This document shows positions 23,579-34,197 of a DNA stretch of 34,806 nucleotides, in pieces (the first letter of the stretch is position 1; every line of letters starts with the position of its first letter). Below the pieces are notes generated by a model. That model worked only from the letters and a program-made list of their open reading frames with translations, was not told where the DNA came from and did no database searches. Source of the DNA: Gammaproteobacteria bacterium (GTDB lineage Bacteria > Pseudomonadota > Gammaproteobacteria > Xanthomonadales > Wenzhouxiangellaceae); the NCBI GenBank assembly GCA_003560975.1, contig PWJA01000002.1, positions 1 through 34,806 on the forward strand. The letters are read 5' to 3'. The position numbers were made by a program, and so were the translations under genes.

Positions 23579-23604
23579 TCTGCGTTCATCTGCGTTCATC
23601 TGCG
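23579..23604 (-). repeat. 10-bp tandem repeat between tolR and tolA
   Basis: TCTGCGTTCA is repeated twice and then partly (TCTGCG), a 26-bp array with a 10-bp period. On the sense strand of tol it reads GCAGATGAAC in tandem. From memory, near-identical arrays recur in spacers of many environmental bacteria and give rise to spurious short frames with residues like NADERR. A frame of that kind is present here (23459-23674) and is not a gene. No terminal inverted repeats or target duplications were seen. Confidence 0.6.
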
Positions 23605-24788: not shown

Positions 24789-25226
24789 TCAGTTTCCTTG
24801 AAATTCAACGATGGCCGCACGCAGGGCCGGCGGCATCCGGACGGGTCGAAAGCGGTCGGCGCTCAGGCAGGCAATCGCGATACCGCCTTCGGCCAGCACC
24901 AGGCCGTCCTGCCGCCGGATGCGCTGGCCGATGCGCATGGAGGCGGCCCGAAGCTCTTCGACGGCGACATCGACGGCAAGTTCATCCTCCAGGCGCGCCG
25001 GTGCGGAAAAATCGATCCGGGCCGAGGTCACGACGAACAGGCGCTGTTGCCGCTCGCGCAACTCGACCTGGGGGAAGCCCAGCGACAACAGCCAGTCCGA
25101 GCGCGCTCGTTCCATGAAGTTGAGATAGCGCGAGTGGTACATCACGCCGCCGGCGTCGGTGTCTTCCCAGTAGACGCGATAGCGCCAGCTTGCCTGGCCG
25201 ACCGGCCGGGGAGCGCGCCCGCTCAC
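24789..25226 (-). CDS. ybgC: Tol-Pal-associated acyl-CoA thioesterase YbgC
   Basis: This hotdog-fold thioesterase of the 4-hydroxybenzoyl-CoA type has 145 residues. The active-site block is [20 protein letters not shown] (D24, Y30, H31), followed by [10 protein letters not shown]. It hydrolyses acyl-CoA or acyl-carrier-protein thioesters, and its link to Tol-Pal is by gene order and reported lipid-enzyme contacts. The GTG start is inside the ruvB stop (GTGA), so it is coupled to the ruv genes; tolQ follows after 7 bp. The start gives about ten extra N-terminal residues compared with E. coli, but there is no later ATG before the conserved core. Confidence 0.95.
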
Positions 25227-26275
25227 GATTCGCGCCCTTCGGGTGTCGACCCGAACAGATCCCGGCCGGGCTGGTCGGGCGGTTCCAGACCGAAATGACG
25301 CCAGGAGGCGGCCGTCGCCATGCGCCCGCGAGCGGTGCGCACGAGATAGCCCTCCTGGATCAGGAACGGCTCGATCACGTCCTCGATCGTGCCGCGCTCC
25401 TCCGACAGCGAAGCGGCCAGGCTTTCGACCCCCACCGGCCCGCCGCCGAAATGCTCGATCAGCACCTTCAAAAGGCGTCGGTCCATGATGTCGAATCCGC
25501 GCTGATCGACCTGCATCATCTCCAGCGCCCGCATGGACACCTCACCGGAGATATGTCCGTCGGCCCGTACCTGGGCATAATCGCGCACCCGCCGGAGCAG
25601 ACGATTGGCGATGCGCGGTGTTCCGCGCGCCCGCCGGGCGATCTCCTCGGCACCGGCCGCATCGGTTGCGATGTCGAGAATGCCGGCCGAACGGGTCACG
25701 ATGCGGGCCAGGTCCGCGGTGGCGTAGAACTCGAGACGCTCGACAATCCCGAAACGGTCGCGCAACGGAGAGGTGAGCAGCCCGGCCCGCGTCGTCGCTC
25801 CGACCAGGGTGAAGCGCGGCAGGTCGAGCTGGATGGAGCGGGCCGCGGGTCCCTCGCCGATGATGATGTCGATCCGGTAATCTTCCATGGCCGGATACAG
25901 GACCTCTTCGACCACCGGGCTCAAGCGGTGAATCTCGTCGATGAACAGGACATCGCCGGGTTCGAGGTTGGTCAGCAGCGCGGCCAGGTCCCCGGCTCTT
26001 TCCAGCACCGGACCGGAGGTCTGGCGCAGGTTGGTTCCCATCTCGGCGGCAATGACGTGGGCCAGCGTGGTCTTGCCCAGGCCGGGCGGGCCGAAGATCA
26101 GCACATGATCGAGCGCCTCGTGCCGCTTGCGCGCCGATTCCAGGTAAATGGACAGGCGCTCCTTCATCGCCGTCTGGCCGGTGTATTCGGCCAGGCGCCG
26201 CGGCCGCAGGCTTTCTTCGATCCGGGTTTCTTCCGGTTCGGCCGTGGCCTTGATCAGGCGGGTCTCCTCGGTCAT
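25223..26275 (-). CDS. ruvB: Holliday junction branch-migration helicase RuvB
   Basis: This is the AAA+ motor that drives branch migration with RuvA. It has 350 residues (336 in E. coli). Walker A is GPPGLGKTT (62-70, K68), Walker [10 protein letters not shown] (D113, E114) and sensor 1 VGATTRAG. The arginine finger lies in SPLRDRFG, and the C-terminal winged-helix region is [20 protein letters not shown]. The start overlaps the ruvA stop by one base (TGATG), and the stop overlaps the ybgC GTG. The extra length is a variable C-terminal tail ([20 protein letters not shown]). Confidence 0.98.
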
Positions 26276-26859
26276 CAGGCCCCCATCTTCCTTTTCAGCG
26301 CGGCCCGGATCAGGGCCTCGGCCGGCTGATCGGCCGCTTCCACAGCGCGCACCATCTTCAGCGCCTCGGCCGCCGAATAGCCCAGCGCGGTCAACGCGGC
26401 GCGCGCTTCAGCGGCGGGCTCCGCCGGACCGCTCGAAGTGCTCACCGCTCCGGGCAGGTCGCTCAGGCGGCCGCGCATTTCCAGCACCAGGCGCTCGGCG
26501 GTCTTCTTGCCGATGCCGGGCAGACGGGTCAGGGCCTGGGCATCGCCGGCCTCGACCATCAGGGCAAAGTCGTCGCTGCTGACCCCGGACAGAATCGCCA
26601 GGGCCAGGCGCGGACCCACACCCGAGACCTTGAGCAACTCACGAAACAAGGCGCGATCGGGCGCGCGCAGAAACCCGTACAGGATATGAGCGTCCTCGCG
26701 CACGATCAGCTGGGTCAGCAGCGTGACCGGCTCGCCGATCGCCGGCAGCCGATCGAATACCGACAGCGGCGCTTCCACTTCGTAGCCGACCCCGCCGACG
26801 TCGACCAGCAGTCCGGGCGGCTGGCGCTCCAGCAGGATGCCGTGCAGACGCCCGATCAT
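26275..26859 (-). CDS. ruvA: Holliday junction-binding protein RuvA
   Basis: RuvA forms the tetramer that holds the four-way junction for RuvB. It has 194 residues (203 in E. coli). The N-terminal OB fold begins [20 protein letters not shown]. Two helix-hairpin-helix motifs follow ([16 protein letters not shown] and [19 protein letters not shown]). The C-terminal domain that contacts RuvB is [19 protein letters not shown]. The start is fixed by the family N-terminus and overlaps the ruvC stop (ATGA); an in-frame extension to 26916 lies inside ruvC and was not used. Confidence 0.97.
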
Positions 26860-27344
26860 CGCAAGACCACGCCGGCCGGCAGGCGGGCCAGGGTCTGGGC
26901 CATGTGCAGATGGCACAAGGCAACGGCCAGGGCATCGGCGGCGTCCTCGGCCGGCGTCTCGGCGAGCTTGAGCAGAATTCGGGTCATGTGCTGGACCTGT
27001 TCCTTGGCCGCCCCGCCGCGGCCGACGATGGCCTGCTTGATTGCGCGCGGGGCGTATTCATGCACTTCCAGTCCGGCCGCGACCAGCGCACAGATCGCCG
27101 CTCCGCGGGCCTGGCCGAGCTTGATCGCCGCCTGCGGGTTGCGGCTCATGAACACCGACTCCACCGCGGCGATCTCGGGCTCGAAGCGTTCGATCAGAAC
27201 CCCGAGCCGGGCAAAAATCCGCCCCAGTCGCTCGGGCATCGGGCCATCGCCCAGGCGCACGGATTCGGCATGCACCAGGCGCTCACCGTCAATGATGCCG
27301 ACACCGGTGATCCGCGAGCCGGGATCGAGGCCGATGATCCTCAT
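26856..27344 (-). CDS. ruvC: Holliday junction endonuclease RuvC
   Basis: RuvC cuts Holliday junctions symmetrically. It has 162 residues. The catalytic acids are D7 (IIGLDPGSRITG), E62 (AAVESVF) and D134 and D137 (EDAADALAVALCH), all present. The C-terminus is slightly shorter than in E. coli (173). The sense-strand leader directly before the ATG is not a ribosome site but a C-run array with 7-bp period (27345-27373). The stop overlaps ruvA (ATGA), so ruvC, ruvA, ruvB and ybgC are chained by overlaps and probably translated together. Where transcription starts is unclear; it may read through from yebC. Confidence 0.97.
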   Translation of the reverse strand: MRIIGLDPGSRITGVGIIDGERLVHAESVRLGDGPMPERLGRIFARLGVLIERFEPEIAAVESVFMSRNPQAAIKLGQARGAAICALVAAGLEVHEYAPRAIKQAIVGRGGAAKEQVQHMTRILLKLAETPAEDAADALAVALCHLHMAQTLARLPAGVVLR

Positions 27345-27373
27345 CCGACCAGGGACCAGGGACCAGGGACCAG
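27345..27373 (+). repeat. 7-bp-period array abutting the ruvC start (GGGACCA x3)
   Basis: G-runs start at 27352, 27359 and 27366, exactly 7 bp apart, with spacer ACCA each time. The G-rich strand is the plus strand, so in the ruvC mRNA this is a C-rich leader ending at the start codon. It is inverted relative to the array at 27466-27503, so the two could pair into a long stem around a 92-bp core. Confidence 0.8.
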
Positions 27374-27465
27374 AAATCGGATTCGATGGAACAAAGGGCG
27401 CTTTTTCCGGTACTCGGTTCGTGGCAGGGATCTCCAGTCAGAACAGGCCGTCGGGAAATTGAGCG

Positions 27466-27503
27466 CCCTGGTCCCTGGTCCCTGAGCCCTGGTCCCTACT
27501 CCC
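27466..27503 (-). repeat. 7-bp-period array abutting the yebC stop (six C/G runs)
   Basis: CCC runs start at 27466, 27473, 27480, 27487, 27494 and 27501, a perfect 7-bp register. The spacers are TGGT, TGGT, TGAG, TGGT and TACT. On the minus strand, which is the yebC sense strand, this is six GGG runs with four-base loops starting immediately after the stop codon. That is a textbook G-quadruplex pattern. Confidence 0.85.
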
Positions 27504-28244
27504 TTATTCGTCATACGCTTCCGCCGGAATGTCCGCGTTCGACCAGACGTCCTGGGTGTCGTCAAGGTCTTCGAGCAGGTCGAGGAACTTGAGCACTTTC
27601 TGGCCGGTTTCCACGTCCAGGTCGACCAGGACCGCGGCACGCTGGGTGACTTCGGCTTCGTCGACCGGCAGGTCGGCGCCGCGCAGGGCCTCGCGAACCG
27701 CCTCGAAGTCGTCCGGTGCCGTCAGCACCTCGATGCTGCCGTCCTCATCGCTAAGGACGTCTTCGGCTCCGGCCTCCAGCGCCACCTCCATGACCTGCTC
27801 TTCGCTGGTCCCGGGGGCAAAGCTGAGCACGCCCTTTTTTTCGAACAGGTAGGCCACCGACCCGTCCGTCCCCAGATTGCCGCCGTACTTGGAGAAGGCG
27901 TGCCGTACCGCGGCGACCGTGCGGTTGCGGTTGTCGGTGAGGCAATCGACCATGACCGCCACGCCACCGGGGGCATAGCCCTCGTAGCGAAGCTCTTCGT
28001 AGGCCGCGCCTTCCAGATCACCGGTGGCTTTCTTGATCGCCCGCTCGATGTTGTCCTTGGGCACATTGGCGGCGTTGGCCTTGTCGATGGCCAGGCGCAG
28101 GCGCGGATTGGCTTCCGGATCACCGCCACCTTCGCGCGCGGCAACGCTGATTTCGCGGATCAGGCGGGTGAAAATCTTGCCGCGCTTGGCGTCCTGGGCC
28201 TTCTTGCGATGCTGGATGTTGGCCCATTTGCTGTGGCCGGCCAT
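27504..28244 (-). CDS. yebC: YebC/PmpR-family protein
   Basis: This conserved 246-residue protein has been described in different bacteria as a transcription regulator (PmpR) and, more recently, as a factor relieving ribosome stalling. The N-terminal hallmark is [20 protein letters not shown]. It is followed by [11 protein letters not shown], the central block [20 protein letters not shown] and GPGGVA-like [20 protein letters not shown]. The full length is intact, so it should be functional. GAGG lies 7 nt before the ATG at 28244. It precedes ruvC on the same strand across a 159-bp gap filled with repeat arrays. Upstream, the conserved link to aspS is broken by the plus-strand gene at 28384. 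Confidence 0.96.
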
Positions 28245-29437: not shown

Positions 29438-30121
29438 CTACATCCCTGCGCCGCGGTCAAACCGGCCGCGGTGCAGGAATCGGGCGACCTGACTCGCGAC
29501 CTCGGCCGACAGCACCAGCCCGGTATGCGAGACATCCAGCTCCAGGCGGTCGGCCGCATCCGGCAACTCCGTTTCGGCCACGGCGATGGTGCCGTCATGG
29601 GGCAGTTCCAGGCGCTTGAACACCCGGCCCAGCCCAAGTCCTTTCGTGCCGGCGATGACGCCAGTCTCGCGGCCGGCCGGCGCGTGACCAAAGCCATAGG
29701 CCAGCGCCGTGCGCGCCTTGCCCACGAACGGGCGGGTCAGCGGCATCTGGGCAATCTTGCTTGCGGTCGAAGAACCGCGTACCGGCGAACCCATCAGGAC
29801 CACGCGGCCTTCGGGCAGGCGCCGCCATCCATCGAACATCCGCAAAATGACCAGGCCACCCAGGCTATGGCCGACGAAATCCAGCGGCTTGGCGTCGATC
29901 CGGCGAGCGAACTCGTACAGGGCGCGGGCGTTTTCGGCCAGCGTGCGCCCGAGGGTCGGATAACTGAACGCATGGGTCCGGAATCCGCGCGCCTCGAGCC
30001 GACGGGCCAGCAGCGCCAGGCTGACCGTACCGTACCAGAGGCCGTGGACCAGAACCACCGTTCGTCCGCCCGGGCGGTCCGGCTTCGAGCCCCCTGCATC
30101 GGGCGGCTCGCGCTCGGTCAC
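29438..30121 (-). CDS. Alpha/beta-hydrolase, lipase/esterase-like
   Basis: This 227-residue serine hydrolase has an oxyanion-hole motif [10 protein letters not shown] (H26-G27) and nucleophile elbow [10 protein letters not shown] (S86). The likely acid is D176 in HDGTIAV and the histidine H199 in DVSHTGLVL, completing the triad. The closest shape is the PGAP1/lipase-like group acting on lipid esters. No signal peptide is visible, so it is probably cytoplasmic. The GTG start overlaps the aspS stop (GTGA), so its translation is coupled to aspartyl-tRNA synthetase. I know of no functional link between the two; the hydrolase may simply share the promoter. The substrate is unknown. Confidence 0.85.
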
Positions 30122-31884
30122 TGCTGCGGCTTGAGCTGAATGTGCAGCTCGTCGAGCTGCTGAGAATCCACGACAGACGGTGCACCGGTCAGCGGGCAGC
30201 CGGCGGTGGTGGTCTTGGGGAAGGCGATCACTTCCCGGATCGAGTCCTCACCGCACATCAGTGCGGCGATGCGGTCGATGCCAAAGGCGATGCCGCCGTG
30301 CGGCGGGCAGCCGTAGCGCAGTGCTTCGAGCAGGAAGCCGAAGCGCGTCCGGGCTTCGGTCTCGTCGATGCCGAGCAGGTCGAACACCGCCTGCTGCAGG
30401 GCCGGATCGTGGATTCGGATCGACCCACCGCCGATCTCGGCGCCGTTGAGGACCATGTCGTAGGCCCGCGAAACCGCCCCGGCCGGGCTCGCCCTGAGGC
30501 TCTCCGGATCGGGTTGCGCTGGCGCGGTGAACGGATGATGCAGCGCGTAGTAGCGCTGCTCGTCCGGGTCGAATTCGAACATCGGGAAGTCCACCACCCA
30601 CAGCGGTCGCCAGCCGGGCTCGACCAGATCCAGATCCCGGCCGACTTTCAGGCGCAGCGCGCCCATGAAGGCATTGACCACCGGCCTGGTGTCGGCGCCA
30701 AAGAACAGCAGGTCGCCGGCAGCGGCCCCGGTGGCGTCCAGAATGCCGTGAACCGCCGCTTCATCCAGGAACTTGGCGATCGGCGACTGCACGCCCTTCA
30801 GCCCGGCCGCCGGATCGTTGACCTTCATCCAGGCCAGGCCCCGGGCGCCGTAGCGAGCCGCGTAGGCCGCGTACTCGTCGATCTGCTTGCGCGACAGGCT
30901 CGCCGCGCCCGGCGCGCGCAGCGCCGCCACCCGGCTGCCCGGATCATTGGCCGGGCCGGAGAAGACCTTGAACTCCACCGAGCGCACCGCATCGCAGACC
31001 GTGACCAGCTCCAGCCCGATGCGCAGGTCCGGCTTGTCCGAGCCGAAGCGCTGCATGGCCTCGCTCCAGCTCATGCGCGGGAACGGGCCCGGCAGCTCCA
31101 CGCCGAGCACATCGCGGAACGTGGCCCGCAGCATGCCCTCGGCAATCGCCTGGACATCGGCTTCATCGACAAAGGCCATTTCCAGATCCAGCTGGGTGAA
31201 TTCCGGCTGGCGGTCGGCGCGCAGGTCTTCGTCGCGGAAACAGCGCGCGATCTGGTAGTAGCGATCCATGCCGCCCATCATCAATAGCTGCTTGAACAGC
31301 TGCGGCGACTGGGGCAGAGCGAAGAAAGAGCGCGGCTGGGCCCGGCTGGGCACCAGGTAATCGCGCGCGCCCTCCGGCGTGGCCCGGGTCAGGATCGGCG
31401 TTTCGATGTCGAGAAAGTCGTGCCCGTCCAGATAGCGGCGAATCGAACGAGTCAGGCGCGCGCGTCGGCGCAGATTGTCCTGCAGACGATTCCGGCGCAG
31501 GTCCAGGTAGCGATACTTCAGCCGCACTTCCTCGCCGTCTTCCTCGCTCATCAACAGCGGAAGCGGCGCGCTGACAGTGAGAATTTCCACGGTCTCGGCG
31601 AGCAACTCGACCTTGCCGGTCGCCATGTCCGGGTTCCACTGGCTTTCCGGCCGCAGGCGCACCTGCCCGGTCACGCGCACGCAGAACTCGTTGCGCAGTT
31701 TCTCGGCGACTGCGAAAGCCGCCGAATTCTCCGGCTCGACCACCACCTGCAAAACACCGGAGTGATCTCTGAGACCGACGAAGATCAAGCCCCCGAGATC
31801 ACGGGCCCGGGCGACCCAGCCGCACAGAACCACGGACTGACCGGCGATGTTTTCGTTGACGTTGCCGCAAAGATGAGTACGCAT
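30118..31884 (-). CDS. aspS: Aspartyl-tRNA synthetase
   Basis: This class II synthetase charges tRNA-Asp. It has 588 residues (590 in E. coli). The N-terminal OB-fold anticodon domain includes [19 protein letters not shown]. Motif 2 is [20 protein letters not shown], and motif 3 lies in [16 protein letters not shown]. The bacterial insertion domain is present (about 290-420). Residue 30 is Leu, as in the discriminating E. coli enzyme; non-discriminating enzymes such as that of Pseudomonas have His at this site. This suggests it charges only tRNA-Asp. The gene follows fmdB by 12 bp, and its stop overlaps the hydrolase start. Confidence 0.98.
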
Positions 31885-31896
31885 GGGGTTCGGGTT

Positions 31897-33085: not shown

Positions 33086-34066
33086 TCAATTCCAGGCTTC
33101 CGCCAGCCGGACCAGACCCTCGGAGATCGAGACCTCGGGCCGATACCCCAGGTCCTGCCGGGCCGCGCTCAGGTCGTACCAGTGGGCCGTGGCCAGATGT
33201 TCGACCACGAAGCGCGACAGCGGCGGATCGCTGTGGCGGCCGGTCAGGCGCCACAGGCCCTCGACCATGCCGGCGGCCGCATTGGCCAATCCCGGCGCCA
33301 CGCGGCGTACGTCGGGATGCTCGCCGGCCGCTTCGAGCAGGCGGGAAATGATCTCGCCGTTGGGCAGCGGCTCGCCGTTGCTGATGAAGTAGGCCTTGCC
33401 GGCAGCCGCCGCCGACCCGGCCAGGCTCTCCACGGCCAGGATGTGGGCCCGGGCGGCGTTGTCGATGTAGACCGTGTCGATTTTTTTCTCCGGCGCCGGC
33501 AGGCGCAGGCGTCCGGCCCGGTTTTTCTCGATCAGGCGCGGCAGCAGCTGGTTGTCGCCGGGCCCCCAGATCAGGTGTGGTCGCAGCGCACAGGTTTTCA
33601 GGACCGGCCCGTTGGCCGCCAGCACCAGGCGCTCGGCGCGGGCCTTGGTTTCCGGGTACGGGGCGTGGAAACGGACCGGATACGGCAGCGACTCGTCCCC
33701 GTTTTCGATATCTCCGCCGCCGTGCACCACGCTCGGCGAGGAGGTGTAGACCAGGATGCCGATCCCGTGCCGGGCGCACGCAGCCAGCACGTTTTCGGTG
33801 CCCACGACGTTGGGCCGCTCGAAATCCGGGGCGTGCAGGCCGGGACCGGCCTTTGCGGCCACGTGAACGATCGCCTGGCAGCCCTCCGCGGCCGCCAGGA
33901 CGGCCTCGGTATCGGCGATGTCGCCGCGCCGGCAGGCCACGCCCAGCGCCTCCAGCTCGGGATAGGCCGAGCGGTTCAGGGTAACGACGGAATCGCCGCG
34001 TTCGATCAGTTGCCGGACGATGGCCCGGCCGAGAAAGCCGCCGCCGCCGGTGACGAGGATTTTCAT
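33086..34066 (-). CDS. oleD: OleD-type NAD(P)H-dependent 2-alkyl-3-oxoalkanoate reductase
   Basis: This extended short-chain dehydrogenase has 326 residues. The Rossmann motif is VTGGGGFLGRAI. The catalytic region is VYTSSPSVVHGG (Ser) and YPETK (Y137, K141). The segment TCALRPHLIWGPGDNQLLPR and later KAYFISNGEPLPNGEIISRL match OleD of Xanthomonas and Stenotrophomonas. OleD reduces the beta-keto acid made by OleA, on the way to long-chain olefins. oleA, oleB and oleC are not next to it on either side, so it is detached here, or it serves as a 3-beta-hydroxysteroid dehydrogenase relative. ATG 34066 is fixed by the family N-terminus. It has no ribosome site; a C-rich 7-bp array abuts it in the sense strand. 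Confidence 0.82.
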   Translation of the reverse strand: MKILVTGGGGFLGRAIVRQLIERGDSVVTLNRSAYPELEALGVACRRGDIADTEAVLAAAEGCQAIVHVAAKAGPGLHAPDFERPNVVGTENVLAACARHGIGILVYTSSPSVVHGGGDIENGDESLPYPVRFHAPYPETKARAERLVLAANGPVLKTCALRPHLIWGPGDNQLLPRLIEKNRAGRLRLPAPEKKIDTVYIDNAARAHILAVESLAGSAAAAGKAYFISNGEPLPNGEIISRLLEAAGEHPDVRRVAPGLANAAAGMVEGLWRLTGRHSDPPLSRFVVEHLATAHWYDLSAARQDLGYRPEVSISEGLVRLAEAWN

Positions 34067-34092
34067 GGGGTTGATGGGTTCAGGGTTCAGGG
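34067..34092 (+). repeat. 7-bp-period G-run array abutting the oleD start
   Basis: G-runs start at 34068, 34076, 34083 and 34090 (spacings 8, 7 and 7) with spacers TTGAT, TTCA and TTCA. On the oleD sense strand it is a C-rich leader ending at the ATG. Four GGG tracts with short loops could form a G-quadruplex on the plus strand. Confidence 0.8.
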
Positions 34093-34160
34093 ATTTGCAT
34101 CCTACCGTAGCTACGCGATCAACGGCCAAGCCAGGCGCAATCAACCAGACTCACCCGAAC

Positions 34161-34197
<37 letters not shown>

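Follow-up and report, generated by a model that had tools for sequence, protein, structure and literature searches.

REPINs/BIMEs and MITEs are intergenic elements in which inverted arms surround a variable loop. Rehm et al. (2015; PMC4692102) have reported heptamer-armed intergenic repeats from Xanthomonas, with convergent GGGAATC arrays (70 convergent pairs in one genome and 75 in another), the heptamers lying at the same place in two species in 83% of cases and usually being of the same type (single or pair), and quadruplex formation in vitro, seen by CD of (GGGAATC)3GGG with four units preferred. Direct repeats of the heptamer TAACTGA are reported from Beggiatoaceae in PMC4679880, and in a survey of such long repeats of simple sequence (Mrazek 2007, as cited in PMC4679880 and PMC4692102) heptamers outnumbered the other longer units in most genomes; according to PMC4679880, slippage was proposed for such repeats by Mrazek and colleagues. 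Heptamer-armed repeats have so far been read as quadruplex elements. Our literature searches returned nothing on Wenzhouxiangella tandem repeats or on invertible intergenic heptamer-armed repeats, and for later work on the Xanthomonas heptamers only Rehm et al. itself was found.

We analysed a window of 34,806 nucleotides, the whole stretch of DNA presented above, from a draft assembly (G000) of 3.08 Mb in 286 contigs, 99% complete, whose YebC protein is 83-92% identical to those of the ten best congeners and 86% identical to that of the nearest named relative, a Wenzhouxiangella metagenome bin. The spacer between yebC and ruvC measures 159 bp and consists of a heptamer array, a 92-bp core and a complementary array (Table 1). 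An earlier note on this DNA had described three GGGACCA units facing six CCC runs in 7-bp register around the core, which we confirm, the CCC tracts starting at 27466, 27473, 27480, 27487, 27494 and 27501. It had also placed GGG tracts right after the yebC stop codon, where the first G of the second arm indeed follows directly on the TAA (27504-27506), and a C-rich copy, in the ruvC sense strand, right before the ATG, a fair description given that 2 bases separate the end of this array, and 7 bases the end of its last CCC tract, from the start codon. The complementarity of the arms is real, and the figure of about 20 bp given for it is too short, the fold pairing most of both arms. The arms are not unit-for-unit mirrors, GGGAGTA and GGGCTCA being present in one of them only. 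A CRISPR was rejected, as there is no spacer-repeat layout and the arms are inverted; a coding repeat was likewise considered and rejected.

Table 1. Positions of the features discussed, numbered from the first letter of the window.
Feature	Position	Strand	Remarks
yebC-ruvC spacer	27345-27503		159 bp
G-rich heptamer array, GACCAGG x3.9	27347-27373	+	TRF period 7, 100% matches
Three full GGGACCA units	27352-27372	+	direct reading of the sequence
Core/loop, 92 bp	27374-27465		unique in own genome
Second arm; six GGG tracts in the yebC sense strand, 7-nt period	27466-27503	-	
yebC, 246 aa, YebC/PmpR family	27504-28244	-	name per NCBIfam
ruvC, 162 aa	26856-27344	-	name per NCBIfam
ruvA	26275-26859	-	next downstream of ruvC; NCBIfam
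ruvB	25223-26275	-	downstream of ruvA; NCBIfam
Second heptamer element: GGGTTCA array 34076-34092, core, CCGGAAA array about 34157-34194	about 34076-34197		divergent spacer
OleD-like oxidoreductase gene	33086-34066		best NCBIfam match below cut-off
aspS	30118-31884		
12-bp spacer beside aspS	31885-31896		
Tandem repeat	23579-23604		2.6 copies

With the Xanthomonas repeats, as reported in PMC4692102, the arrays studied here share 7-nt G-rich tandem units that are intergenic and nearer the 5' ORF on either strand, a location near stop codons in sense and start codons in antisense, and many convergent inverted pairs with few between divergent ORFs; with the Beggiatoaceae TAACTGA repeats, as reported in PMC4679880, they share intergenic heptamer arrays near start codons. 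At least two G-tract heptamer units per array, an intergenic and genome-wide distribution, the placement and the convergent pairs are thus all found here, but the unit is GGGACCA or GGGTTCA, not GGGAATC or GGGANTN, hence a variant and not a GGGAATC member. The heptamer-armed class itself is already described (Xanthomonas, PMC4692102), and the present data add another unit and genus. Long simple sequence repeats, as treated in the sources above, differ in being a survey class. Unlike the Xanthomonas repeats, congener arrays include units without GGG, and locus-specific units are common to both arms; further differences, which are also new relative to the literature found, are that two sister species have different units and cores in the same spacer and that one whole element is inverted. 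Equally new in that sense are repeated gain or loss, a polarity independent of the unit, the count of 35 G-first against 0 C-first pairs, and the matching of arms in the congener G018. On balance we favour the reading that the yebC-ruvC spacer is a slippage-grown, heptamer-armed palindromic element whose arms probably stay matched through template switching or recombination with each other.

Chance does not account for the spacer array, because the pattern GGG(N4GGG)3 gives 241 overlapping matches (149+92) in its own genome and the period-8 pattern GGG(N5GGG)3 none; across 61 genomes (own plus 60 relatives), at least one period-7 match was found in 50 and at least one period-8 match in 43. Several own-genome arrays stand at contig ends (e.g. 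C30:2, C118:4 and C43:11949 of 11991), so that the assembly probably under-counts them. The geometry of the class was studied using a purpose-written simple gene caller and array finder, short or degraded arrays falling below the detection limit of the latter, in 243 kb of G000 (stretches chosen because array-bearing), 1.2 Mb of one contig of G018 (same genus) and 400 kb each of G049 and G053 (other families of the order). Period 7 accounted for 29/32, 100/117, 23/28 and 15/18 of the intergenic arrays in G000, G018, G049 and G053, respectively, with many different units, and 29 of the 39 period-7 arrays in the array-bearing stretches of the own genome were less than 30% coding. The most frequent copy number, taken from a previous and smaller dataset (800 kb of G018 and the other genomes), was four in all unit classes: 17/51 arrays with GGG, 14/47 with GG only and 8/30 with a single G. 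G049 holds by far the most GGG(N4GGG)3 matches of the 61 genomes (1,930), in arrays of up to about 300 bp. On several contigs of G055, arrays of the octamer GGGCACGA have inverted partners at a distance of 114-173 bp, which indicates that a 7-nt unit is not obligatory for the class.

The earlier note had named a random spread of arrays with respect to gene ends as counting against its proposal; placement proved to be non-random. From 190 period-7 arrays we kept 152, after dropping 21 that lay half or more in called genes, 13 with a called gene on only one side and 4 with a GC skew below 0.15, and in 126 of them, over the four genomes, the G-skewed strand leads away from the nearer gene and into the spacer (p 6e-17; 13 of 17 in the own genome). 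This outward polarity prevails at both start edges (49 to 3) and stop edges (77 to 23). Where two arrays were neighbours no more than 400 bp apart, 35 pairs were G-first, none C-first and 17 same-direction (5, 0 and 2 in the own genome). Arrays were nearer to a gene edge than under uniform placement in G000, G018 and G053, the proximity not being significant in G049 (p 0.17). Array spacers were co-directional in 64, convergent in 26 and divergent in 16 of 106 cases, compared with 371, 99 and 196 of all 666 spacers of at least 100 bp, divergent spacers being under-represented among them (16/106 vs 196/666).

These counts bear directly on the view, considered by Rehm et al., that the arrays act as G-quadruplexes at the DNA or RNA level. 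The outward polarity is observed for 50/58 arrays with GGG units, 45/56 with GG only and 31/38 with a single G only, that is for 76/94 arrays without GGG and 31/38 without GG, so three-tetrad quadruplexes cannot be its general reason; the four-copy mode is also seen in arrays unable to form a three-tetrad quadruplex, and in the yebC-ruvC spacer the complementary arm competes. We therefore regard a quadruplex element as very improbable, despite the six GGG tracts with 4-nt loops that follow the yebC stop codon and the CD data and four-unit preference reported for (GGGAATC)3GGG (PMC4692102). The alternative of a long stem or a quadruplex, proposed in the earlier note, is fair for this copy, but the same geometry in arrays without GGG or even GG means that the quadruplex is not the common denominator of the class. 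That polarity and copy number persist where three-tetrad capacity is lacking shifts the question to the palindrome and to the joint change of its arms. The G-first polarity is the least explained fact of this study, and slippage does not explain so strict a polarity. As a lead only, the enrichment of 5'-G pairs that Monttinen and Loytynoja (PMC8794818) propose for intrastrand switching, which in their argument repairs to the 5' base, could contribute to it.

Folded as RNA, the spacer reaches -83.6 kcal/mol, compared to a shuffle mean of -64.6 (z -4.2; equalled by 0 of 200 dinucleotide shuffles). The 92-bp core alone displays no unusual structure (z +0.47), nor are cores structured as a class (23 cores, mean z -0.35, vs -0.84 for 60 array-free spacers, p 0.24), and no Rfam family matched in the window at the gathering threshold. 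The spacer heads the packed gene run yebC-ruvC-ruvA-ruvB-ybgC-tolQ-tolR (names from NCBIfam, tolR just below its cut-off), in which the other junctions from ruvC to tolR range from -4 to +7 bp in the window and the ruvC, ruvA and ruvB neighbours overlap by 1-4 bases. A transcription terminator at the yebC end would suit a strong stem placed directly after the stop codon, but ruvC and the packed genes downstream would then lose readthrough, no sigma-70 type promoter, the only type scanned for, being matched in 27300-27560. The terminator pattern, scanned with loops of 3-8 bases only, likewise gave no match in 27300-27560, and no T-run follows either spacer arm in the sequence; on these grounds an intrinsic terminator was rejected, and we hold termination at this site to be highly improbable. 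The transcription boundary suggested in the earlier note thus goes unsupported, with no terminator-like match and the spacer at the head of a packed gene run; the mRNA 3'-end protector that it also suggested is a putative role.

A YebC match was found in 56 of the 61 genomes, and 30 yebC loci were examined (own genome, 23 congeners, three of the same family and three of the order). The yebC-ruvC spacer carries an array in 10 of the 24 genus genomes and in none of the six loci outside the genus. Inverted array pairs occur in G000, G005 and G014, the pairing in G014 running past the arrays (TGACGC...GCGTCA, read by eye), and a single array follows the yebC stop in G002, G003, G008, G009, G016 and G018, in each case G-skewed in the sense strand except for the balanced GGTTTCC of G002; the spacer of G013 contains GTCCCGA units, and a GTCCCGA array was found at one of ten named relatives' loci (L018). 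Among the 14 array-free genus genomes, the yebC stop overlaps the start of ruvC (TGATG) in 12, and the spacer is short and plain in two. On a YebC+RuvC tree, 11 of whose 27 inner branches are weakly supported, the array state requires five changes, gains or losses. Arrays have been gained or lost repeatedly in this spacer, and those in the other spacers of the window come and go across 13 congener or family genomes. Absence from close relatives combined with a single occurrence in the genome, which according to the earlier note would have told against its proposal, is not what we observed, given these ten genus genomes and the many own-genome copies. The sisters G000 and G005 (support 100/98) carry GGGACCA and GGGACTC, respectively, each in both arms, and their yebC-ruvC cores do not align, either directly or inverted. 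As a separate observation, a G027 spacer contains repeated GTCGGTCGGGGATGCGACCCCGACCTACA units.

In G018, the arm units of 23 G-first pairs differ at 0.96 of 7 positions, against 2.36 for permuted partners (0/2000 permutations). Arm matching is not significant in G000 alone (5 pairs; 209/2000 permutations) or in G053 alone (5 pairs; 411/2000), and the two pairs of G049 have 1 and 0 mismatches between arm units. Matching stems are normally taken as proof of a selected RNA structure, and if selection on one RNA maintained the stem, G-U mismatches should outnumber A-C mismatches in co-directional pairs. One of the 35 pairs was dropped because it had no gene on a side; the 17 co-directional pairs, a small sample with 444 aligned positions, gave G-U 11 and A-C 11 and hence no wobble excess, and the other 17 pairs gave G-U 8 and A-C 18. 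The equality of G-U and A-C fits copying rather than selection on one RNA, and a mutational route, namely template switching or arm recombination with the flip of a whole element as its footprint, is here at least as good an explanation. A selected RNA hairpin could set mRNA processing or stability, or bring the yebC stop near the ruvC start for translational coupling, the latter in keeping with the tight coupling implied by overlapping TGATG genes in 12 of the 14 array-free genus genomes; yet the same elements occupy convergent (26/106) and divergent (16/106) spacers, where coupling is inapplicable, G-U is not in excess (11 vs 11), and the element comes and goes between congeners. Although the stem is stable (z -4.2), the arms abut both gene ends, and arms resemble each other in spite of units that differ between loci and species, we consider such a hairpin unlikely. 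As divergent spacers are under-represented, some selected RNA or DNA function may still be involved.

In the slippage-grown palindromic element that we favour, replication slippage favouring 7-nt steps would lengthen and shorten the arrays, a reading suggested by a period that is nearly constant while the unit varies freely. Template switching or arm-arm recombination would copy one arm onto the other, whereby a unit would be replaced in both arms and the element could flip; template switching with arm repair and loop inversion has been described by Monttinen and Loytynoja (PMC8794818). At the RNA level, a long stem-loop would form between the yebC and ruvC cistrons, with changed ruvC expression or mRNA processing as a plausible, putative by-product. 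The non-mirror arms of the spacer and the differing arms of the second element speak against this reading, as do the non-significant arm matching in G000 and G053 taken alone and the finding of no more than one clear inversion.

The single clear inversion among the few ortholog pairs compared was found in a spacer other than yebC-ruvC. In this element 2, 150 columns comprising the core and most of both arms align between G018 and G009 in inverted orientation at 96.0% identity (core alone 93/95 inverted, chance level direct), with collinear flanks of 81.4% identity over 1,888 columns (running through the spacer) and 87.6% over 388. An inverted 150-bp alignment between collinear flanks implies that the whole element was flipped, and its identity, higher than that of the flanks, hints at a recent exchange. 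With regard to a recombinase-driven invertible element (inverton), the inversion is seen between two congeners, and at another spacer. In G008, the element 2 spacer contains a different core, akin to that of element 1. At element 1, direct alignment of the G018 core with that of G009 scores 96, against 41 for the best of 2000 shuffles, with arms that read by eye AGGTGAC in G018 and, in G009, AGGTGAA on the left and a degenerate AAAGGTA-like sequence on the right; both arms are AAAACGG-like in G008 (by eye). The G008 core scores 44 inverted and 33 direct against that of G018, a difference not counted as an inversion in view of the quasi-palindromic nature of the G018 core, which scores 58 when aligned to its own complement. 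No further inversion appeared among seven array-bearing ortholog spacer pairs, in which conserved flanks confound the scores, and two further spacers had no match in G008 or G009. A tentative reading, to which we give limited credence, is that the arms, as inverted copies of a lineage-wide unit, are interchangeable cassette ends: through recombination or template switching, elements could flip in place and cores be swapped between spacers or strains, a continual rewriting of intergenic space that would need no recombinase, with the unit free to drift if both arms follow.

Sharing of cores between different places would also speak for a palindromic element of MITE or REPIN type, dispersed and once mobile, whose heptamer arms evolve fast. 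Three groups of GTGTTAA-armed elements in G018 share cores at different places with 74-85% identity, no similarity being seen by eye beyond the arms. At 6/6 intergenic G018 sites of the central palindrome TGGCCAATGGC...GCCATTGGCCA, heptamer-like arrays lie to both sides at no more than 110 bp; one of these sites is weak, and three served to build the model (six copies, three in G018). The remaining matches of the palindrome are weak and fall within called genes or, in G053, at places lacking arrays. A recent exchange is again suggested by the inverted element, with its 96% identity between flanks of 81-88%. At the locus itself, however, the 92-bp core finds only itself above chance in its genome (next matches E 0.86, 15-25 bp), and the nine own-genome cores compared have no core in common; 4/72 core-against-core comparisons passed 3 of 200 shuffles, the best being the window core with the C58 core (18/21 columns). 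An 84% match of the window core over 38 bp in G005 was taken as chance, as it falls in a stretch reading as part of an ATPase gene. In the sampled sequence, 5 of the 30 cores of at least 25 bp have non-self relatives, all in G018, and one of these matches much-repeated intergenic sequence. In G018, recurring cores are no more frequent in array spacers than in array-free ones (16/68 vs 74/402, p 0.32); the corresponding figures are 2/12 vs 3/63 in G000 and 0/9 vs 8/135 in G053, and the enrichment in G049 (8/14 vs 19/148) arises from repeats present in array-free spacers too. No match to Y1_Tnp (PF01797, RAYT-type) was found in G000, the search having covered 21 genomes other than G018. The window core had no match in phage records, nor the inverted congener core of element 2 in plasmid records. 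No clear target-site duplication was seen by eye; empty TGATG sites were, and both codons must survive in any case. In comparison with REPINs/BIMEs and MITEs, the locus thus has tandem-heptamer arms, no shared core and no RAYT-type transposase in G000. The mobile-element trace suggested in the earlier note is accordingly not supported for this copy, with its unique core, and retains some ground in the congener elements that share cores; as an explanation of the spacer we judge a dispersed element quite unlikely. Separately, the palindrome TGGCCAATGGC...GCCATTGGCCA lies nested inside heptamer arms in G018 600001-1800000 (L127-L146, L193-L212, L262-L281) and recurs at the G008 loci L286 and L297, as a distinct element family.

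The window contains a second heptamer element, absent from the earlier note's entry and lying upstream of the OleD-like oxidoreductase gene (Table 1), whose arms differ (GGGTTCA vs GGTTTCC) and whose spacer carries other heptamers in several congeners. The 12-bp spacer beside aspS, GGGGTTCGGGTT, looks like the stub of a heptamer array, and the aspS-side spacer has arrays in G017 and G005. Finally, the tandem TCTGCGTTCA resembles GCAGATTAACGCAGATGAAC in a G017 spacer, and from their sequences the two are possibly a dispersed repeat of their own.
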